Source: a virus. From it: 31,563 nucleotides of DNA. The stretch covers positions 1-31,563 of the IMG/VR virus record IMGVR_UViG_3300046006_004498; one strand, written 5' to 3'. A model generated the notes under the pieces. It made no database searches, had not been told where the DNA came from, and saw nothing but the letters and a program-made list of their open reading frames with translations. Of the stretch, positions 1,717 through 11,455 are shown piece after piece. A program made the position numbers and the translations under genes. Numbering within the stretch: the first letter of the stretch is position 1; each line of letters begins with the position of its first letter.

Positions 1717-2225
1717 TTTGATTTCCTCTTCTTTTTTTTAAAAATCTTTTTTGTCATAATAGAATTATAAATATCTTCTGCACATTTATAATGTAATATT
1801 AAATCATTTTCTTTTCTATCATCGTGCTTTTGATAATATCCTTGAAGTAAAACAAAATCTATTTCTTTAAAAGTTGTATAGCCTTTTTCATCAAAGATTC
1901 TTAAAACTTCAATTGCTAAAAAAGATGGAATCCAGCCTTTTCCTATTGTAAAATGTTTTTTTACAGTATTTCCGATAATATTATAGTATTCACTCATTAG
2001 TGGATTAAATTTGATTGTTTTCATAACATCTTCATAGGTATTATTGTTGTTTTCTATTATTTTTCTGATTCTTTGCACTGAACTAGCAACAATATCTTCT
2101 TCAATTACACAAGGCCTACCTTTACCTTCATTTGTTAGACGTTCTGCCTGAACAAGCTGGAAGTGAAAATATGCTTGGATAAATTTGTATTTATACGTTC
2201 TTAAATCATATATAAATGCGTTCAT
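1713..2225 (-). CDS. Uncharacterised protein in the par operon
   Basis: 170 residues, not recognised. It is rich in Lys, Ile and Tyr, contains an Asn run (IENNNNTYEDV) and ends in a strongly basic tail (KKIFKKKKRKSK) that could contact nucleic acid. No signal peptide or membrane segment is seen. Its start codon overlaps the parB stop by one base (TAATG) behind a GAGGAAAT ribosome site, so it is translationally coupled to parB, and its end overlaps the excisionase-like start. Conserved spacing argues it is a real gene and may act with the partition or excision functions; that is inference. Confidence 0.7.
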   Translation of the reverse strand: MNAFIYDLRTYKYKFIQAYFHFQLVQAERLTNEGKGRPCVIEEDIVASSVQRIRKIIENNNNTYEDVMKTIKFNPLMSEYYNIIGNTVKKHFTIGKGWIPSFLAIEVLRIFDEKGYTTFKEIDFVLLQGYYQKHDDRKENDLILHYKCAEDIYNSIMTKKIFKKKKRKSK

Positions 2226-3280
2226 TATATTTCCTCGATAGTTATTTTATATGTTTTACCTATTTTAAAAGTACGCATACCACCACTTGCATAATTAACA
2301 AAATAAAAAAAACCTTCATCTTCAAAACTTATACTTTTATCATCTTCCGCTTTTTTACTAGTAAATACAAACTTTTGTTTTTCTTCCTCTATGTCTATTT
2401 GCGTAAGAAAAAAACTATATTCTTCTTCAATATATCCTTCTTTAAGGTAACTTGGATATTTCATATGTGCTTTGAGTAAAGCATTACCTTTATTATATGC
2501 TTCAATAATATCACTCTCATAAATTGTTCCATCTTTACAAGATATCTCAAGTTCATATTTTTTTAAATTTTCCCTCGGGGAATTTTCTTCTAAAACCTCA
2601 AAAACTCCATCATCATATCTTTTCTCTTTCTTGGGTTTAAAATCCTTAATGTCATCCCTGGTGATCTCACGATTATTATATTTTTCAAAAACCTCTTTTT
2701 GAGTATCTTTATCTTTTACTCTTGCGATTTCATCCATAACACCAATTGAAATAGGTATTTTATTTTGTTCAATATGATCTATGATTTCACTATCAAGCTT
2801 TAAGCAGCTAAAAGACTTACTTACAAAGCTATCTGATTTTCCAATTTTTGTTGCTAAATCTGATTTTTTTTCATATCTTCCTGAATCCCAAAGTTTACAA
2901 ATATGTTTTGCTACTTCAAAATCTGTTAAATCATTTCTTTGAATATTTTCAATCAAAGTTAGTTCTTCAACAACTTCATTTGAAGCATCAATAATATGTG
3001 CTTTGATAGTTTTAGATTGATTATGTAAGTGAGCTTTGTATCTTCGTTCACCTGAGATAATCATATATCCATCAAATTTTTTTACAACTGTAATTGGTTG
3101 AAGTAATCCATGCTCTTTGATAGTAGCTGCAAGTTGTTCTATATCATTAAATTGTTTTCTTGGTTGCTCAGGGTTTGGATAAACTTTTGTGATTTCAAGT
3201 TCACTAAATGGACTTATTCCGGCTGTTCTAGTTTTTCCAGCTGTAACAGCTCCGATTTTTGAGAAATCAGGGTTTTTCAT
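2225..3280 (-). CDS. parB: ParB/Spo0J-type centromere-binding partition protein
   Basis: 351 residues. The N-terminal ParB/sulfiredoxin-fold domain (about 25-115) contains PNPEQPRKQF, the GERRYKA box II and TLIENIQRNDL, which in this family form the CTP-binding pocket. A helix-turn-helix follows (about 130-165, SDLATKIGKSDSFVSKS). The C-terminal 120 residues are acidic and not recognised; in ParB proteins this part dimerises. The protein would bind parS sites and work with the ParA ATPase encoded two genes upstream. One copy of the dispersed palindrome proposed here as parS lies inside this gene at 2569-2582. Unlike classical operons, a YopX-like gene separates parA from parB. Confidence 0.93.
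   Translation of the reverse strand: MKNPDFSKIGAVTAGKTRTAGISPFSELEITKVYPNPEQPRKQFNDIEQLAATIKEHGLLQPITVVKKFDGYMIISGERRYKAHLHNQSKTIKAHIIDASNEVVEELTLIENIQRNDLTDFEVAKHICKLWDSGRYEKKSDLATKIGKSDSFVSKSFSCLKLDSEIIDHIEQNKIPISIGVMDEIARVKDKDTQKEVFEKYNNREITRDDIKDFKPKKEKRYDDGVFEVLEENSPRENLKKYELEISCKDGTIYESDIIEAYNKGNALLKAHMKYPSYLKEGYIEEEYSFFLTQIDIEEEKQKFVFTSKKAEDDKSISFEDEGFFYFVNYASGGMRTFKIGKTYKITIEEI
2569..2582. repeat. Dispersed palindrome copy 1 (candidate parS), within parB
   Basis: TTTCCCTCGGGGAA: TTTCCC, two-base centre, then GGGGAA, one mismatch from the perfect dyad. Read on the minus strand its right flank (GGGAAAATTTA) matches the flank of copies 3 and 4. It is the most diverged of five copies, perhaps because it is constrained by parB coding. 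Confidence 0.6.
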
Positions 3281-3282
3281 GT

Positions 3283-3753
3283 TTAGCCTTTTAATAGTTC
3301 AGGGTTTTTGTAAATATTTCCTATTACTTCAAACCAATGTGTTATATTAAAGTTTTCGCTAGTTCCCCACTCAGGAACATTGTGATTTCCCTTTTCATAT
3401 TTCACAACATAATTTCCAAATTTCCAATCCATACCATTTATTGAACCATTAACTCCTGCTAAAATATCACCATCATAAATTTCAGTTTCATTTTTATCTT
3501 TATTTTCAGTAAATTGTATATTTTCAATATGCACCCATCCTTTTAAATGCTCATCATCGTCTGGAAATAACTTAATAAATCTTCTTTCTGTTCTTATTGT
3601 TTCTAAAAATTTATCCCATCTATTATTTTCAAAATCAAATAAGTATGATAAAAAACTAGAATCTGTACCATATGCTTCTGAAACATATATTACACCATCA
3701 TGTCTTTGCATAACAGCTTTAAACTTTATTTCTCTATTAGTTAATAAGCTCAT
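3283..3753 (-). CDS. YopX family phage protein
   Basis: 156 residues. The start NREIKFKAVM, the central ENIQFTENKDKNETEIYDGD and the end FEVIGNIYKNPELL are the three recognisable blocks of the YopX family, found in many phages and conjugative elements and of unknown biochemical function. It begins with a 17-base overlap into parA and ends two bases before parB, so it is embedded in the partition operon. The usual length for the family is 120-160 residues. Whether it helps partition or is merely cargo cannot be told from sequence. Confidence 0.85.
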   Translation of the reverse strand: MSLLTNREIKFKAVMQRHDGVIYVSEAYGTDSSFLSYLFDFENNRWDKFLETIRTERRFIKLFPDDDEHLKGWVHIENIQFTENKDKNETEIYDGDILAGVNGSINGMDWKFGNYVVKYEKGNHNVPEWGTSENFNITHWFEVIGNIYKNPELLKG

Positions 3754-4339
3754 CCCTCAATCCTTCAATCTCTTCAATTGCTTGTTTATTTCCTGTATCA
3801 AATACACTTTTCCCAAAACCTAAAGTATCTTTATAAATTTTTCTACTTCTGACTACTGTTTTCAATAGCTTCATCTTTTCATTTGAAACAATTTGTTCTA
3901 TGCTTGTAAACTCTTTTAGAAGAGGGTGGATATTATTTAGGACCACATTTATTGATGTTGCATCTATGTCTTTTAAAATTGCTTTAAAAGTTTCAAATCC
4001 AATAATCTCAGTTACACTTGAACTAACTGGAATAAGTATCTTATCAGCCTTATTCATAGCGATTCTGTTTATATCTGAATCGAAACCGCCCAAATCAACA
4101 ATTAAATGCCCGTGATTATCTTCAAATATATCAAGCAGTTCATCTGCTGTTTGTGGTTGTAAAACTTGCATAAATGGGTTTTCATTTAATGCGTTTATAA
4201 AAAATAGAGTTTGTTGAAAATCTAAATCCACAATTCTTACTACTTCACCAGCTGCATGAAGCGAGTGAGCTAAATTCCAGGCAAGAGTTGATTTTCCAAC
4301 TCCACCTTTTGTGTGTGCTACTGTTATTATTTTTGACAC
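3737..4339 (-). CDS. parA: ParA-family partition ATPase
   Basis: 200 residues, a short P-loop ParA/MinD-type ATPase without an N-terminal helix-turn-helix, so probably of the type Ib-like compact class. The deviant Walker A motif KGGVGKST is at 11-18, Walker A' region VRIVDLDFQQT near 35-45 and Walker B HLIVDLGGF near 78-86. It would form an ATP-dependent gradient on nucleoid DNA that moves ParB-parS complexes. Start overlaps the upstream 79-residue gene by 13 bases and its end overlaps the YopX gene by 17. Lack of an HTH means it is unlikely to autoregulate by itself; ParB or an unidentified protein would do that. Confidence 0.93.
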   Translation of the reverse strand: MSKIITVAHTKGGVGKSTLAWNLAHSLHAAGEVVRIVDLDFQQTLFFINALNENPFMQVLQPQTADELLDIFEDNHGHLIVDLGGFDSDINRIAMNKADKILIPVSSSVTEIIGFETFKAILKDIDATSINVVLNNIHPLLKEFTSIEQIVSNEKMKLLKTVVRSRKIYKDTLGFGKSVFDTGNKQAIEEIEGLRDELIN

Positions 4340-5326: not shown

Positions 5327-6019
5327 TTATATCTCAGTAGCATCAGAAGCAATTAAATAATCTATATCATCTAATATGGTCTTTTTATTTTTTACAAATA
5401 GATTATAGTGAGTATCTAAATCTCTATAAAGTAGTTCAAATAGTTCTTCATCTGCTCCCCATTTTTCAGCTATTTCATAAGCTATAGCATTATCTTCTTT
5501 ACCCTTCCAGTCTTTGATATATGATCCATCTTTGTAACCATTGTCTTGTCTAAATTTATTCAAACAATTTTTAACTATGTATGCAATATAAACATCTTTA
5601 TTAGTCATATTCAAATATTCAAATATTTTTTTCATTACAATAAATCTATTCCATCTATTGTAATTTAATTCATCAACTAATTTATTTAAACTTAATCCAT
5701 CTAAATATCCATTGCTATTATTAAAATGGTCTTCAAAAGTTCTAGCAATAAGAGTCAAATCAATTTCGCCAGAACAATCGTATTGAAGTTGAATAGCATC
5801 ACTAATTCCAAAATGAAGTAAATCAATAGCTTCAACTTTTACATTATCCATATCAGGTTCTTGTTTTTTCCACCACTTGTAACCTAATGAGTCTAATAGC
5901 TCTCCACTTTCAACAATAATTGCACTATTCCAATTAAGATTTTTTTTAAGATAATCTTTAAACACTTTTTTATTAAATTCGTGTTGTAGTTCTACCATTT
6001 TCTTAAAAATTTTACTCAT
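5327..6019 (-). CDS. dut: Dimeric dUTPase (all-alpha NTP pyrophosphatase)
   Basis: 230 residues, the normal length of the dimeric dUTP diphosphatase found in Campylobacter, kinetoplastids and some phages. It hydrolyses dUTP to dUMP and pyrophosphate, keeping uracil out of replicating phage DNA. The metal-binding motifs are visible: LQHEFNK (11-17), NWNSAIIVESGELLDSLG (29-46, Glu37 and Glu40), KVEAIDLLHF with its Glu and Asp near 63-67, and the C-terminal FRQDNGYKDG-YIKDWKGKEDN that holds the uracil and phosphate contacts. AAAGGAAATT precedes the ATG. The 112-base gap upstream holds strong inverted repeats that may regulate it. Confidence 0.93.
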   Translation of the reverse strand: MSKIFKKMVELQHEFNKKVFKDYLKKNLNWNSAIIVESGELLDSLGYKWWKKQEPDMDNVKVEAIDLLHFGISDAIQLQYDCSGEIDLTLIARTFEDHFNNSNGYLDGLSLNKLVDELNYNRWNRFIVMKKIFEYLNMTNKDVYIAYIVKNCLNKFRQDNGYKDGSYIKDWKGKEDNAIAYEIAEKWGADEELFELLYRDLDTHYNLFVKNKKTILDDIDYLIASDATEI

Positions 6020-6055
6020 ATAATTTCCTTTTTTTTAATTTTATATTCACATCAA

Positions 6056-6140
6056 AGAGTAGTATTAGTTTAGATTTCACACATACTTCCATACTACTCT
6101 TGAATCTAAATATATGATTTAGAGATTAACTCTAAATCAT
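6056..6140 (-). promoter_or_regulatory. Structured leader between the DUF2303-like gene and dut
   Basis: Three perfect inverted repeats in 85 bases. ATGATTTAGAG 6114-6124 pairs with CTCTAAATCAT 6130-6140 (11 bp, five-base loop) and spans the stop codon of the upstream gene. AGAGTAGTAT 6056-6065 pairs with ATACTACTCT 6091-6100 (10 bp). TTTAGATT 6069-6076 pairs with AATCTAAA 6103-6110 (8 bp). The last two interleave, so the RNA must form either a pseudoknot or one of two exclusive hairpins. No T run follows, so it is not a simple terminator. It leads into the dut ribosome site. Confidence 0.55.
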
Positions 6141-6911
6141 AAATGAACTCACACCTTCACAGCTCTTACATACATCTTTTGTTAAATCTCTGATAGTTTT
6201 CTCAATGATTTCATCAAGTTTGTAGCAAACTAAATTAGCTATAAATCCACCATCTGTTGCTTCAAGGAATAGTTCACAATCAAATTGAACTTCAAGAGAT
6301 AAATCATTTTTATAAATAGGCATTTTAAAATGAATATATCTAGGTATTTCATAGTTTTTATTACCTGATTTTACTTCTGCATCAACCGTAAATGCTTTTA
6401 ATGTATTTCTTTGAACACTTTGGAAGTTTTTAGTAGCTTGAAGATTTTCAGCAACTTCAATAATGTCCATATCATCTGCTTTTGCATTATTGAATCCAAC
6501 AATACAACCTTCTAATCTTTTTAAGATTCTAATAAAATCTTTTTGACTTAAATCTCTATCTAAAATATTTTTAAATTCATCAAAATTTTTAGTGTTTTCA
6601 AGTTGCATTTCACAATATGAATCATGATAATCTGCTTCACTAAGAGTAGAGTAGTTGAATACTGTTTTTATTCTTGAATTGTTAAAAAATATCTTTGTAC
6701 CAGGTGTTTTATACTCTTTTACAAAAGCAATAAAATCATCTTTATTTAAAATACTTTGCTTTAAAACATGTCTAGCTATTTTATGTTCAAAATTTTTACC
6801 TCTATTTTCTTCAGCAACTTTATAATCTGTATGTATAACTTCTCTTCCATCTTCTAGTTTTGCAACTGGTTTTAAATCACCTTTTAGTGCGTTGAAAAAT
6901 GTTTTTATCAT
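6132..6911 (-). CDS. DUF2303-like phage protein
   Basis: 259 residues. Overall length, early-operon location and blocks such as DDFIAFVKEYKTPGTKIFFNN, FDEFKNILDR-LSQKDFIRILK and the C-terminal beta-rich part (FKMPIYKNDLSLEVQFDCELFL) resemble the DUF2303/YfdQ family of prophages, whose role is unknown. No membrane segment. It begins immediately after its neighbour (start at 6911 overlaps the stop of the 110-residue gene). Family assignment is from remembered pattern, so moderate. The stop codon lies inside an 11-bp hairpin. Confidence 0.6.
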   Translation of the reverse strand: MIKTFFNALKGDLKPVAKLEDGREVIHTDYKVAEENRGKNFEHKIARHVLKQSILNKDDFIAFVKEYKTPGTKIFFNNSRIKTVFNYSTLSEADYHDSYCEMQLENTKNFDEFKNILDRDLSQKDFIRILKRLEGCIVGFNNAKADDMDIIEVAENLQATKNFQSVQRNTLKAFTVDAEVKSGNKNYEIPRYIHFKMPIYKNDLSLEVQFDCELFLEATDGGFIANLVCYKLDEIIEKTIRDLTKDVCKSCEGVSSFMI

Positions 6912-7243
6912 TAGTTATCCTTTTTAAAATCCATAACCATTTGGTTTGGTCTGTTTCGTGTTGGCAAGTATGTTTGATGATTAACAAAAAATGCACCTGT
7001 AATCTTTGAAGTTGGAAGTTTTGCTCTTGTGCTTCCTGATATAGTTATCATTTCATCATTTGTTTTACTAATAGTAAGTTCAATGATAATAGATGATTTT
7101 TTATCTTCTAAACAAGTAGCTTTAACAGCTTTTTGTAAATTGCTAGCAGCTTGACGGGTTAACTCACCCCCACCAATACTTTTCATTGCATCAATTAATG
7201 TTTCTATCTCAGCTGGATATATTTCAGTATTATTCGCATCCAT
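6911..7243 (-). CDS. First gene of the leftward early block, unknown
   Basis: 110 residues from the ATG at 7243, chosen because AAAGGAATCA lies just upstream; an in-frame start at 7291 would add a poorly supported 16-residue extension. Not recognised. It has a short helical N-terminus (ETLIDAMKSIGGGELTRQAASNLQKAV) then a beta-rich part (SSIIIELTISKTNDEMITISGSTRAKLP). Such proteins commonly sit directly before DUF2303 genes, and the two probably work together, perhaps in DNA binding or recombination. The function is not known. Confidence 0.7.
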   Translation of the reverse strand: MDANNTEIYPAEIETLIDAMKSIGGGELTRQAASNLQKAVKATCLEDKKSSIIIELTISKTNDEMITISGSTRAKLPTSKITGAFFVNHQTYLPTRNRPNQMVMDFKKDN

Positions 7244-7556
7244 ATTGATTCCTTTTAAATTTATTATGAGACTACTCATAAAAAAGAGCAACTTTCACCA
7301 ACCTAATCAAACTGATTTTTGATAAGTTCAAAAAAAAATAAACAAAACTAAACAAAAGATTTTCCCTTTCTTTTATTGGTAATTTAGATTGTTGCTCTTT
7401 TGTATAAATAGTTATAGTTGTTTTCTGTTCTTGGTAAACTATGCCTTAACCTCAATAAACTCAATCAATCTTTAACCTCTAGGGCGACTGATACCACTAA
7501 CGCTTTAATTTTCGTTTTTGTAAACAAGTGGGTTTGAACAATGTGTTTTAAAATAA
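7244..7556. other. Non-coding stretch upstream of the leftward block
   Basis: No convincing gene. AAAAGAGCAAC at 7282-7292 and GTTGCTCTTTT at 7391-7401 form an 11-bp inverted repeat around a 98-base loop. TTAACCTC occurs twice in direct orientation about 25 bases apart (near 7446 and 7473), resembling regulator half-sites. Candidate minus-strand -10 hexamers occur (for example TATAAC near 7411-7416), so this is probably a leader and promoter region for the leftward genes. None of these assignments is firm. Confidence 0.35.
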
Positions 7557-7593
7557 CTTATGTTTTTACGCATAAGAGAACCTTTGATATAAT
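7557..7593 (+). promoter_or_regulatory. Promoter with dyad for the 64-residue gene
   Basis: A perfect -10 TATAAT at 7588-7593 with no clear -35, as is usual in Campylobacterota. Just upstream CTTATG 7557-7562 and CATAAG 7571-7576 form a dyad around eight bases, covering the -35 zone, a plausible operator. Transcription would start near 7600 and read into the ORF at 7630. Confidence 0.55.
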
Positions 7594-7629
7594 ATTTTCG
7601 ACCAAAAAAACTTATACAAAGGCTCACTT

Positions 7630-7824
7630 ATGGATAATAGAACCAATACTAAAGGACATTATTTGCGTGACATCAAAGAAGGCATCGAAAAAGATCGCTT
7701 CTATGAGTTGTCAGTAATAGCTATTTCTAATGAATTTAGAGGTGAAAACCTAGTAGACTATTTCAAATCACATGGATTTAAAATAGAACTAGAAGGTGAT
7801 GTATATATATTTACATCTTTATAA
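7630..7824 (+). CDS. Small acidic protein, unknown
   Basis: 64 residues, MDNRTNTKGHYLRDIKEGIEKD onward is not recognised. It has its own promoter with a dyad at 7557-7593 and an AAAGG site seven bases before the ATG. Pattern suggests a compact helix-strand fold (ENLVDYFKSHGFKIELEGDVYIFTSL). It points right while its neighbours point left and overlaps the 3' end of the next gene by six bases, so it lies antisense to any transcript coming from the left operator cluster. It may be a small regulator. Confidence 0.6.
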   Translation: MDNRTNTKGHYLRDIKEGIEKDRFYELSVIAISNEFRGENLVDYFKSHGFKIELEGDVYIFTSL

Positions 7825-8073: not shown

Positions 8074-8138
8074 TTAATACCTTTAATCTAAAATTTCAAA
8101 GAACTTATATCAAGGATTTGATATGCTTGTTTTGAAAT

Positions 8139-8204
8139 AGTAAGATATACTTACTTAAAAATTAATTAAATAAGTAAGAATTACTTACATATTTTTGTAT
8201 TATA
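8139..8204 (-). promoter_or_regulatory. Left operator-promoter (OL/PL-like)
   Basis: AGTAAG-ATATA-CTTACT at 8139-8155 is a perfect 17-base dyad, and AGTAAG-AATTA-CTTACA at 8173-8189 has one mismatch. The same element recurs three times before the cro-like gene, so both clusters should bind the repressor encoded at 9975-10610. A minus-strand -10 TATAAT lies at 8199-8204, which places the start point inside the second operator. Repressor binding would block leftward transcription. Confidence 0.75.
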
Positions 8205-8252: not shown

Positions 8253-8287
8253 AAAAAAAGGCTAGATAAATTAATATCTAGCCTTTT
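8253..8287. terminator. Bidirectional terminator ending the repressor operon
   Basis: GGCTAGATA 8260-8268 pairs with TATCTAGCC 8275-8283 around AATTAA, flanked by an A run (8253-8259) and a T run (8284-8287). It lies 16 bases after the lipoprotein stop and would end leftward transcripts of cI, the nuclease-like gene and the lipoprotein before the left operators. Confidence 0.9.
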
Positions 8288-8303: not shown

Positions 8304-8900
8304 TTATAAATATCGTTTTATAAATTTATTTTCCAGTTCATTAAAGAATACGCTTCTGTATTTTTTAATAAGTTCTTGATAACCTTTTTTAATATCTTCT
8401 TCAAAAGAGGCACTATTTTTTATTGTAATTACATCATTATATGAATATGAATTTATAACTTTTCCATTTTCTTCTATTTCAAATAATATGTTTAAATTTA
8501 GAGAATAATCCGTATCTGCTCCAGCAGCAAATACACCAACTAAAGGTATTTTCTTAGCTGATGAAAAAATCCAATAAGGAACGGCTTCTTTTATTGTAAT
8601 ATTTAAAGTTCTATTTGAACTTGTATTAAATAGTAATTTAGAAAAATATTCATTTATGTCTTTTTCAACTACGCTAGTAGTTGATTCTTTTGTTGGTATA
8701 GGCATTTTTGAATCACCATAACCTGAATAATCAACTTTTATTTCTTTTTCAACTTTTTCTATTGATATAGTTTTAATATTAATATTTAAAGGAGTTTGGT
8801 TATTGAAGTGATTGGTACCTAAATCAACTTCCATAGGTTTAATAGTACACCCTGCAAAAAGCAACATAATAAAAAGAATAAAAAAACTATATTTTTTCAT
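8304..8900 (-). CDS. Predicted lipoprotein of the immunity operon
   Basis: 198 residues. The N-terminus MKKYSFFILFIMLLFAGC is a lipoprotein signal with the lipobox LFAGC, so Cys18 would be lipidated and the protein anchored in the membrane. The mature part is beta-rich with one moderately hydrophobic stretch (WIFSSAKKIPLVGVFAAGA). It overlaps the end of the nuclease-like gene by 14 bases and is followed by a terminator, so it is the last gene of the cI operon and should be made in lysogens. Mature domain not recognised. A surface exclusion or lysogenic-conversion role is inferred from position, which matches rexB in lambda. Confidence 0.8.
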   Translation of the reverse strand: MKKYSFFILFIMLLFAGCTIKPMEVDLGTNHFNNQTPLNINIKTISIEKVEKEIKVDYSGYGDSKMPIPTKESTTSVVEKDINEYFSKLLFNTSSNRTLNITIKEAVPYWIFSSAKKIPLVGVFAAGADTDYSLNLNILFEIEENGKVINSYSYNDVITIKNSASFEEDIKKGYQELIKKYRSVFFNELENKFIKRYL

Positions 8901-9951
8901 TGTTCAGCCTATCTATAATAGCTAATATTTCATTTTTATATTTGTAAATATCTTCAATATTTTCTATAGCAAATTTTTCTTCTTTTTTATCTTCTATATG
9001 TAAAGCTAAATACTTTTGTTTTGTATTAAATAATAATCTACAAATCCATTTTCTATTATTATCATCTAACAAAATTCCAAAATAGCTCTTGGTATCTCTT
9101 GCAAATATTCTATTTAATTGCATTTTTTCAGCTAATATTGATTTGATAATGAAGAATCCTTGAAGCTCTTCTTCTGTCGTATCAATACCATTATTATCAT
9201 CTTCAATTATTTCTTCTTGTTCATTGTTTATTTCAACATTTAGTTTTGATTTTAATGAATTTATTTTATCTTGAGCCATATCAGAAATTATTTCAGAAAA
9301 AGCAGATTTTACATAAGCTTTGAACTCCTCTATAATATTTTGTCTAAGTGGTTTTGATGCTAATTTTGTTGCAAAAATTCTAATAAAATCTTCTGATGGT
9401 TCTTTTACTTCTTCTTTAAAAATGTTTTTTATTCCAGTAATATATTTTTTAGTTTCAGCACTTGTAAGTATTTTATCAACATCAAAGTTACCACTTTTAA
9501 ATTTATCTAATTCTCTGATATCTCTATCTTTTAAGTTTAACATATTAAAAATAAAGAAAGGTACAGGGTCCATTTTGTTTGGTTTTTCTAAATCAGTAAA
9601 AAATCTATACTCTATACCATTTGTTAAAATAGCAAATTTACTTTCTGTTACTGTAAAATATCTCTCAAGCTGTGTTGCATGATTGTTTAGATTTTCAGTA
9701 TGAGCCTTAGCTTCTATTAAAATTAATGGATTACCATCATACATGATTGCATAATCAACCTTTTCATTTTTCTTTTTGCTTATATCTGCTGTAAATTCAG
9801 GAACTACAACAGTTGGATCAAACACATCATAACCTAATGCACTAATAAATGGCATAATAAAAGAATGTTTAGTTGCTTCTTCTGTTAATACATTATCTTT
9901 TAAAGTACTAATTCTTTGAGACAAAATATTTAATTTTTCAATAAATTCCAC
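8887..9951 (-). CDS. HsdR-N-like PD-(D/E)XK nuclease-family protein
   Basis: 354 residues from a GTG behind AAAGGAAATA. The first 130 residues show the pattern of stand-alone HsdR N-terminal (COG4748-like) proteins: TEEATKHSFIMPFISALGYD with Glu24, VDYAIMYDGNPLILIEAKAH with Asp66, Glu80 and Lys82, then QLERYF and FAILTNGIEYRFF. These are the residues of a PD-(D/E)XK nuclease core. A helical linker (about 150-250) leads to a C-terminal domain of about 95 residues. There is no helicase motor, methylase or specificity subunit. It lies 23 bases after cI, so should be lysogen-expressed, in the place of rexA in lambda. Defence against other phages is an inference; nuclease activity is untested. Confidence 0.8.
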   Translation of the reverse strand: MEFIEKLNILSQRISTLKDNVLTEEATKHSFIMPFISALGYDVFDPTVVVPEFTADISKKKNEKVDYAIMYDGNPLILIEAKAHTENLNNHATQLERYFTVTESKFAILTNGIEYRFFTDLEKPNKMDPVPFFIFNMLNLKDRDIRELDKFKSGNFDVDKILTSAETKKYITGIKNIFKEEVKEPSEDFIRIFATKLASKPLRQNIIEEFKAYVKSAFSEIISDMAQDKINSLKSKLNVEINNEQEEIIEDDNNGIDTTEEELQGFFIIKSILAEKMQLNRIFARDTKSYFGILLDDNNRKWICRLLFNTKQKYLALHIEDKKEEKFAIENIEDIYKYKNEILAIIDRLNNEKI

Positions 9952-9974: not shown

Positions 9975-10610
9975 TTAACGACCAATCATCTTTAATCTAG
10001 CAGCTCTATTATTTCTTTTAGAGCTTACAATGTGTACTACTTTATGATATATTAACTTATCCATTGTTAAATTATCATCTTTTCTAACAGTTTTTATTTT
10101 AAAATTATCACTTATGTTATAAGGTATGAAATTTATTAAATAGTTTTCATTATCTTCAAAAAAAACTTTTATGGCACTTTCATCATCAATTTTATAATAA
10201 ACTATATCCCCATTTTGCACTTTAATAGATGGGTCTATTATTGCTCTATCTCCATCATATATTTCAGTTGCCATACTGTCACCACAGGCAATGACTGCGT
10301 AAAGATTTTTATTCCATTCATCTTCTTGTATATATGTTTTTAAGTTTTCTTCTTGTAAACAATTATTTTCTAGTACACCACAAGATGCAGTGCCTACGAT
10401 AGGAATAAATTTAACATTTTTTTCTTGACTGCTTAAATCTACTCCAAGAATTAAAGATAATTTTTTCATATTTTCATAAGTAGGAGTATTACTGTTTTTT
10501 TCATAATTAGTAATTGCATTTCTAGTCACACCAATTAATTTAGCTAACATTTCTTGAGATAGTTTTTTATCAAGTCTTGCTTTTTTTAGTCGCTCACCGA
10601 AATTATCCAT
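9975..10610 (-). CDS. CI-like repressor with LexA/S24 autocleavage domain
   Basis: 211 residues from the ATG at 10610 (AAAAGGT upstream; a TTG three bases earlier is less likely). An N-terminal HTH (LSQEMLAKLIGVTRNAITNYE, 17-37) is joined to an S24 peptidase domain. Cleavage-site region TASCGVLEN gives Cys77-Gly78, the pair used by UmuD instead of the Ala-Gly of LexA and lambda CI. Catalytic Ser112 (GDSMA) and Lys148 (SAIKVFF) are present. It should keep the lysogen by binding the five AGTAAG-N5-CTTACT operators and be inactivated through RecA after DNA damage. It heads an operon with the nuclease-like and lipoprotein genes. Confidence 0.93.
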   Translation of the reverse strand: MDNFGERLKKARLDKKLSQEMLAKLIGVTRNAITNYEKNSNTPTYENMKKLSLILGVDLSSQEKNVKFIPIVGTASCGVLENNCLQEENLKTYIQEDEWNKNLYAVIACGDSMATEIYDGDRAIIDPSIKVQNGDIVYYKIDDESAIKVFFEDNENYLINFIPYNISDNFKIKTVRKDDNLTMDKLIYHKVVHIVSSKRNNRAARLKMIGR

Positions 10611-10628
10611 CAAATACCTTTTTATATT

Positions 10629-10701
10629 GTAAGTAATACTAACATATATAATGTAAGTATATCTTTCTATTTAAACCAACTATAAGTAAGAATAACTTAC
10701 T
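10629..10701. promoter_or_regulatory. Right operator region (OR-like, three sites)
   Basis: Three sites with five-base spacers: GTAAG-TAATA-CTAAC at 10629-10643, GTAAG-TATAT-CTTTC at 10653-10667 and the perfect AGTAAG-AATAA-CTTACT at 10685-10701. A plus-strand -10 TATAAT lies at 10647-10652 between the first two, serving the cro-like gene. The repressor promoter on the other strand must lie in the same 100 bases. The perfect site is nine bases before the cro-like ATG, where it may also affect translation initiation or a second start point. Confidence 0.8.
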
Positions 10702-10709
10702 ATTTCAAA

Positions 10710-10952
10710 ATGAAAGAATTTAAAGTTAAAAAAATATCAAAAGAATTAAATATCAGTCACTCTGCTGTTAGTCAATGGTTTAGTGGTTGTACCATGCCAA
10801 AATATAATTATATGGTGTATTTATATAAAAACTACCACATTCCATTTTTAGCATGGCAAGATATTCAATCTTATATTAATGAAAGTATAACGGCTAATAC
10901 AGGCTCAATGGAAATAGAAAACAACTGTAAATCTATGAAGGAGAAAATATGA
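10710..10952 (+). CDS. Cro-like HTH regulator
   Basis: 80 residues. ISKELNISHSAVSQWFSGCTMP (9-30) is a clear helix-turn-helix of the Cro/C1 kind; the rest is helical with a polar tail. It is the first rightward gene across the operator region from cI. No Shine-Dalgarno sequence is seen before the ATG, which is only nine bases from the perfect operator, so initiation may be weak or from a very short leader. Stop overlaps the next start (ATGA). It probably competes with the repressor at the shared operators. Confidence 0.8.
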   Translation: MKEFKVKKISKELNISHSAVSQWFSGCTMPKYNYMVYLYKNYHIPFLAWQDIQSYINESITANTGSMEIENNCKSMKEKI

Positions 10953-11455
10953 AAGAAAATAGACGAAGCAATGCAAGAATCTTTGACCAAGGGTTGTTGG
11001 TAACTGTTCAAAAATCAATCGTTCGTGATATTAAAAGAAATGATTCTGATAAAGAAACATTTGCAGCCGAAATAGGTCTTACAAAAGGTACGCTTGAAAA
11101 CAAATGGACTTTTTCATGTAAAACCAATGATTTTACAATACATGAACTAATTCAGATTATGGAATTAACAGGTGATATATCTCCTCTTGAATATATCGGG
11201 CACATGTTTGACTTAGCTGTTATATCTACAAATACAGAAAATAAAATCACACCTGAACAATTAAGCCAACTTGCTGATGAATCTCAAATACAAAGTAATG
11301 AATCTTTTGCAACTATTAAAAAAGCTTCAAAAGATGGAGTTTATACGACCGAAGAGATAGAGCAAATGAAAAAAGAAGCATTAGAAGCTATTGAAGCAAA
11401 ACAAAGAGAACTAGATGCTATCAAAAAAATTATACCTAGTGACTTGGAGGATTAA
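10949..11455 (+). CDS. CII-like phage regulatory protein
   Basis: 168 residues. An N-terminal helix-turn-helix region (DKETFAAEIGLTKGTLENKW, about 35-54) followed by FTIHELIQIMELTGDISPLEYI resembles the phage regulatory CII/Cp76 family; the last 45 residues form a Glu/Lys coiled coil (TTEEIEQMKKEALEAIEAKQ). AAGGAG stands before the ATG, and it is translationally coupled to the cro-like gene. Position after cro and before replication genes fits cII. DNA-binding targets are not identified. Confidence 0.65.
   Translation: MKENRRSNARIFDQGLLVTVQKSIVRDIKRNDSDKETFAAEIGLTKGTLENKWTFSCKTNDFTIHELIQIMELTGDISPLEYIGHMFDLAVISTNTENKITPEQLSQLADESQIQSNESFATIKKASKDGVYTTEEIEQMKKEALEAIEAKQRELDAIKKIIPSDLED

Follow-up and report, generated by a model that had tools for sequence, protein, structure and literature searches.

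The locus described here raises the question of whether two genes that occupy the position of rexA and rexB in lambda, one for a nuclease-like protein and one for a lipoprotein, act together as a new kind of prophage exclusion module, as a first-pass annotation of this DNA had proposed, or are separate genes that share a place behind the repressor. The stretch of DNA analysed (31,563 nucleotides, hereafter the window) is the 31.5-kb record of a temperate phage with an integrase gene (342–1478) and terminase, portal and tape-measure genes, and this phage is a prophage of a Campylobacter-like bacterium. Genes for ParB (ParB_N, E = 5.8e-20) and a ParA-like protein are also present, at 2225–3280 and 3737–4339, both on the minus strand, with the integrase gene on the plus strand; relatives of ParA and ParB are found in the related loci L002, L004 and L005 as well, and the combination of integration with plasmid-type partition is unusual in one phage. 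The immunity region contains the following features.

8140–8157, no strand assigned: second left operator site, with one mismatch
8171–8188, no strand assigned: left operator, perfect match TAAGTAAGAATTACTTAC
8256–8287, no strand assigned: terminator-like hairpin of 13 pairs, with T-tracts on both strands
8304–8900, minus strand: lipoprotein gene, 198 aa, with a lipobox and homologues in L017 (83%) and L100 (46%)
8887–9951, minus strand: gene for an HsdR-N-type PD-(D/E)XK nuclease-like protein, 354 aa, identified by Pfam, PHROG 4225, alignment and model
9975–10610, minus strand: cI-like repressor gene, 211 aa, with HTH_3 and Peptidase_S24 (Pfam) and a PHROG match
10629–10646, no strand assigned: weaker right operator site
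10683–10700, no strand assigned: right operator, perfect 18-bp match TAAGTAAGAATAACTTAC

The order on the minus strand is cI, nuclease-like gene, lipoprotein gene and hairpin, and the cI-like gene is divergent from a cro-like gene (10710–10952) and a cII (CP76)-like gene (10949–11455). A gap of 23 bp separates cI from the nuclease-like ORF, which has a GTG start preceded by AAAAGGAAATAGC and a stop overlapped by 14 bp by the lipoprotein gene, with the same coordinates and overlap as originally described. This spacing, the overlap that follows and the lack of a strong terminator between the genes suggest that all three are cotranscribed as a single operon. When the window was searched with the operator-like palindrome TAAGTAAGNNTNACTTAC, allowing up to three mismatches, all 10 matches fell within 8137–8191 and 10629–10700; the chance expectation is 2.3, and none of 100 shuffles reached 10. 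Since the matches cluster solely in these two segments, we regard the left operators as real, with the hairpin before them as the first-pass annotation had placed its terminator. Because the cI operon has OL-like operators at one end and OR-like ones at the other, the comparison with lambda is correct as anatomy: this is a lambda-like immunity region in the order OL, terminator, lipoprotein, nuclease, cI, OR, and the two genes do lie in the rexAB position. The relative L002 has similar operator-like sites, and a very similar hairpin follows its lipoprotein gene.

Phages with related repressors carry other genes at this place. Where the repressor is a cI relative of 76–77% identity, the stretch from cI to the left operators holds other cargo; in L115 (5676–7491) and in L116 and L117 (5638–8155) this cargo is quite different, including for example a small membrane-type protein and a 613-aa ORF on the opposite strand that looks ATPase/HSP90-like by eye.

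The nuclease-like protein matches HSDR_N (E = 3.2e-15) and HSDR_N_2 (E = 2.4e-10) in Pfam, both above the curated cut-offs, and its residues 1–350 of 354 align with positions 2–355 of 357 in the profile PHROG 4225 ('endonuclease'; E = 3.6e-125); searches with the PADLOC and NCBIfam profiles gave no match. The D - E-x-K active site of the HSDR_N fold is present as D66, E80 and K82. In an alignment of 94 sequences (the window protein and 93 homologues, with those that do not cover a position counted as gaps), E24, D66, E80 and K82 are identical in all sequences covering them (86, 87, 87 and 87 respectively). Both the numbering of these residues and the earlier description of an HsdR-N-like PD-(D/E)XK protein are correct. 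Comparison with the L002 gene gives dN of 0.034 and dS of 0.638 (dN/dS about 0.05), and the nuclease is thus under strong purifying selection.

An AlphaFold2 model of the protein (pLDDT 85) has an N-terminal nuclease domain at about residues 1–165, a helical linker, and a C-terminal domain at about 256–351, which is likewise conserved in the family, D286, Y290 and R305 among its residues. The modelled N-terminal domain aligns with DrdV (Z 12.2 over 137 residues, rmsd 3.0) and further with Vibrio HsdR 3h1t (Z 11.5), BpuSI (Z 9.3) and EcoR124I HsdR (Z 8.4), and in this model its fold is that of HsdR and type IIG nucleases. Foldseek against the PDB returned nothing at E ≤ 0.001, the top match being a putative HsdR (6.5e-3), and the PDB sequences include no credible relative; we therefore draw the link to HsdR from Pfam, the active site and the second-look structural alignment, Foldseek by itself being below threshold. 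The protein has in common with type I HsdR the N-terminal PD-(D/E)XK nuclease domain, but it is 354 aa long with a different C-terminal domain and no helicase motor, and its operon has no HsdM or HsdS. By Pfam there is no helicase domain in the protein itself, and no methylase or specificity family is represented among cI, the lipoprotein and the ORFs beyond, in agreement with the operon without methylase or helicase that had been reported.

By its sequence the protein is a further member of PHROG 4225, a described and functionally uncharacterised family, so that it is not of a new kind as a protein: the PHROG already names it, and E. coli records label a homologue 'type I restriction endonuclease'. 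We found no plating or biochemical test of the function of this family in the literature searched, which lay mostly outside subscription journals and preprints. A C. jejuni HsdR-N gene, DDV75_03095 (1044 bp), was found in a strain that resists phage but not in the sensitive one (PMC8713573), and from its name and length it may belong to the same family; for DDV75_03095 this is a correlation, the gene shown to be causal for the difference in resistance being McrBC (PMC8713573).

With no methylase to protect the host, unrestricted DNA cutting would be toxic, and a brake is needed. SNIPE, a nuclease bound to the membrane that cleaves phage DNA as it is injected, shows that one protein of this type can provide defence with no methylase, provided that it is confined (PMC13190303). 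It carries a GIY-YIG domain and a transmembrane anchor of its own, whereas the window nuclease has neither (no Pfam match to DUF4041 or GIY-YIG, and no 19-residue segment above 1.6), so that one has to postulate either a brake other than that of SNIPE or an ability to recognise modified DNA. Panchino gp28 of a mycobacteriophage is likewise a prophage-encoded restriction-type protein, active in the lysogen, but it is a single-subunit system that unites restriction, modification and specificity domains (PMC12487901), and no modification or specificity domain was found in the window nuclease.

Recognition of modified DNA would make the enzyme a type IV-like, modification-dependent restriction system whose C-terminal domain reads modified phage DNA. 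Such a system needs no methylase, and none is present; the nuclease domain is of the HsdR/type IIG kind, and the C-terminal domain (residues 256–351) faintly resembles the C-domain with which T4 MotA binds DNA (Z 6.9, rmsd 3.4, 85 residues). Values of Z <8 are in the range of common arrangements, however, and YjbR, frataxin and CapZ score nearly the same as MotA, all with Z <7; Pfam finds no known modified-base reader domain in the protein, and the fold matches of its C-terminal domain are weak. We consider this mode of action unlikely, though worth retaining as one form of the defence reading that we favour below, within whose likelihood it is counted.

The distribution of the family shows where such genes reside. 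Relatives of the PHROG 4225 type occur in at least 547 viral contigs, out of the 599 or more viral stretches matched in an alignment search, and 18 annotated phage records carry a member. Of the 10 phage records inspected, 9 place the nuclease within the lysogeny module, downstream of the repressor, in phages whose hosts belong to four phyla. ImmA is often its neighbour on one side or the other, and an integrase gene often follows; the lysogeny-module records are of Streptococcus, Enterococcus, Fusobacterium, Corynebacterium, Klebsiella, Terrisporobacter, Acetoanaerobium and Lacticaseibacillus phages, the last of these naming no repressor and its placement being read from gene order. A Porphyromonas phage has the gene in another region, adjoining HicAB. 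The commonest genes directly upstream in viral contigs are cI-like repressors or ImmA; of 73 such genes, no fewer than 19 have a match among phage repressor profiles, and 7 encode metalloproteases of the ImmA type. Full-length homologues in Fusobacterium phage FNU_1P, Corynebacterium phage Juicebox (gp33), Streptococcus phage IPP25 and E. coli (WP_000061477.1), with 36–45% identity, share the catalytic residues and are adjacent to cI in most of the phages. The window nuclease is not different in kind from these, but it is followed by a lipoprotein gene and not by an integrase, ImmA or other cargo.

Chromosomal copies are also common. A nuclease match, in some cases weak, is present in 44 of 298 Campylobacterota genomes, and the copies inspected are mostly single genes amid housekeeping genes; those in G021, G029, G127, G254 and G289 are broken by multiple stops, which indicates frequent loss of the gene. 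The E. coli homologue WP_000061477.1 (44% identity) is present in 186 of 5426 complete genomes (3.4%); in the two that were inspected, hicAB lies on one side of it and aldB on the other. HicAB is thus beside the nuclease in unrelated settings, at 8908–9520 in L281 and 4910–5522 in L282 (both E. coli) and at 3248–3882 in L063 (the Porphyromonas phage). Phage and chromosomal copies are intermingled in a 123-protein tree, whose supported branches require no fewer than 11 changes. From this and from the stand-alone chromosomal copies we conclude that the gene moves between phages and chromosomes with no fixed partner, and the interleaving and the decayed copies together represent the kind of turnover that defence genes would be expected to show. 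At L101 (6985–7356), a prophage-like locus from Campylobacterota, the nuclease stop overlaps the gene for a 123-aa protein with a signal-peptide-like start, an EVDFG...EAVGQALYYAMMTG stretch and no Pfam family.

Regulators such as ImmA are typically encoded in the lysogeny module too, and a role in control of the repressor can therefore be envisaged. More broadly, the nuclease could serve the phage's own regulation or maintenance, in repressor control, induction or stable lysogeny, and not exclusion; its gene comes immediately after cI or ImmA in phages from several phyla, which would allow for such a role. Against this, many intact chromosomal copies stand alone with no adjoining repressor, and the nuclease fold and active site suit the cutting of DNA. 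In addition, the L006 copy (6001–7706; 72% identical) is convergent with a cI-like gene and outside the cI operon, and must have another promoter there. We regard a purely regulatory role as distinctly unlikely.

We then consider whether the nuclease and the lipoprotein belong together. Among the closest nuclease relatives, phage and chromosomal (64–94% identity; L002–L006, L018 and L019) the lipoprotein is found only beside the 94% one, and at 71–77% identity other genes take its slot. In viral contigs the only homologue of the lipoprotein found is that of the relative L002/L017 (83%), and 1 of 298 Campylobacterota genomes has one (L100, 46%), as a lone gene between htpG-like and thioredoxin-domain-type genes with the nuclease of that genome on another contig. 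A conserved nuclease–lipoprotein module was accordingly rejected, several searches showing that the lipoprotein is rare and that the nuclease is usually without it. Unrelated lipoproteins do adjoin the nuclease more often than expected, in 15 of 118 co-directional neighbours versus 11 of 725 other ORFs at the same loci (p = 1.4e-7), which could be read as a recurrent nuclease-plus-lipoprotein design. This reading was removed by a control with ImmA, which is followed by a lipoprotein in 10 of 50 cases versus 8 of 51 for the nuclease (p = 0.61); the control set is unmatched for host phylum and seemingly mostly Gram-positive, and the lipoprotein caller is a simple pattern. The equal frequency after ImmA indicates that the neighbour enrichment reflects the lysogeny cargo slot and not pairing. 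The lipoproteins neighbouring the nuclease are mostly unrelated to one another, with no Ltp homology found among them by Pfam, and surface lipoproteins in general gather at the position after the repressor, Ltp of TP-J34 being a known case. The cI operon of this phage holds two independent cargo genes, each of which occurs without the other, and the proposal that they form one module does not survive the finding that the pair is not conserved together.

The lipoprotein itself has the lipobox LLFAGC18, as first reported, and a single hydrophobic stretch that constitutes the signal peptide; no hydrophobic segment follows it, the top 19-residue mean past residue 30 being 1.12. The match to LPAM_1, a generic lipoprotein signal in Pfam, is sub-threshold (E = 0.03), and Pfam gives no sequence match to Ltp or known exclusion lipoprotein families. 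Comparison with L002 gives dN of 0.084 and dS of 0.378, a milder constraint than on the nuclease. An AlphaFold2 model has pLDDT of 48 and is unusable, and no solved structure is credibly related by sequence. Its functional reading draws on gene position and the lipobox, and these suggest that it is probably a separate envelope exclusion protein, perhaps one that blocks injection. Ltp of Streptococcus phage TP-J34 is the nearest likeness, as a lysogeny-module gene product that is transcribed from the prophage and blocks DNA injection (PMC3952083). The two have in common a lipoprotein encoded in the lysogeny module; the window lipoprotein differs in its lack of a Pfam family match and in belonging to a Gram-negative envelope.

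These observations bear on a two-component exclusion system of the Rex kind, in which the nuclease-like protein would sense infecting DNA and signal to the lipoprotein in the envelope. The overlapping genes occupy the place of rexAB, with cI on one side and OL on the other, L002 retains both together, and prophage pairs of a cytoplasmic and a membrane protein are known in Butters (gp30/31), Sbash and CarolAnn (PMC7542560). Like RexA/RexB these are two genes in the slot of the cI operon, and as with Sbash gp30/31, CarolAnn gp44/43 and Butters gp30/31 a cytosolic and an envelope protein would be lysogen-expressed; unlike RexA/RexB and the Rex-like pairs, the window has a nuclease with an intact active site in place of RexA, a lipoprotein in place of a four-pass membrane protein, and an unconserved pairing. 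The lipoprotein is anchored outside the cytoplasm, where it would not be expected to touch a cytosolic nuclease directly, and it has no membrane-spanning segment past the signal peptide; Pfam shows no Rex or DUF4747 match up to E = 0.1; lipoproteins are equally common after ImmA; and a mere sensor would not need the invariant catalytic residues. We find such a system very improbable, and would not regard the pair as a sensor plus channel of the RexA/RexB type.

Hardly any more credible is a selfish homing-like or addiction gene that spreads itself or harms cells losing the prophage, which would fit a lone, patchily distributed gene with decayed copies and with phage and chromosomal copies interleaved, but which is opposed by the recurring functional slot that the nuclease occupies, homing enzymes usually sitting within their own cut site, and by the need of addiction for a protective partner, none being conserved and no antitoxin or methylase adjoining the nuclease in the window.

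We lean, with slightly better than even confidence, towards two independent cargo genes expressed with cI in the lysogen: a self-sufficient defence nuclease and a separate envelope exclusion lipoprotein. Both would be transcribed from the cI promoter. The nuclease would attack superinfecting DNA with its PD-(D/E)XK domain of the HsdR/type IIG type, and discrimination between self and non-self might come from the conserved C-terminal domain or from the state of the incoming DNA, whether modified, unprotected or being replicated. The lipoprotein would exclude phages at the envelope, much as lipoproteins of the Ltp type do by blocking the injection of DNA. An exclusion role for the locus, as the first-pass annotation suggested, is thus plausible, whereas the idea that the pair makes up a module of a new kind is not upheld, given its lack of conservation and the ImmA control.

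The nuclease–lipoprotein pair is then ordinary cargo, and the nuclease family is the part worth testing. PHROG 4225 is common, is located behind repressors in unrelated phages, keeps its active site strictly, has no methylase and is absent from the PADLOC library. Somewhat tentatively, and aware that the opposite is the safer assumption, we propose that it is an unrecognised one-gene, methylase-free anti-phage defence of temperate phages and bacteria of many phyla, in which the conserved C-terminal domain would enable the nuclease to spare the DNA of the host in some way so far undescribed, and which in this phage is placed beside an independent surface-exclusion lipoprotein. The E. coli homologue, with 44% identity, makes both phage restriction and the sparing of self directly testable in laboratory strains.
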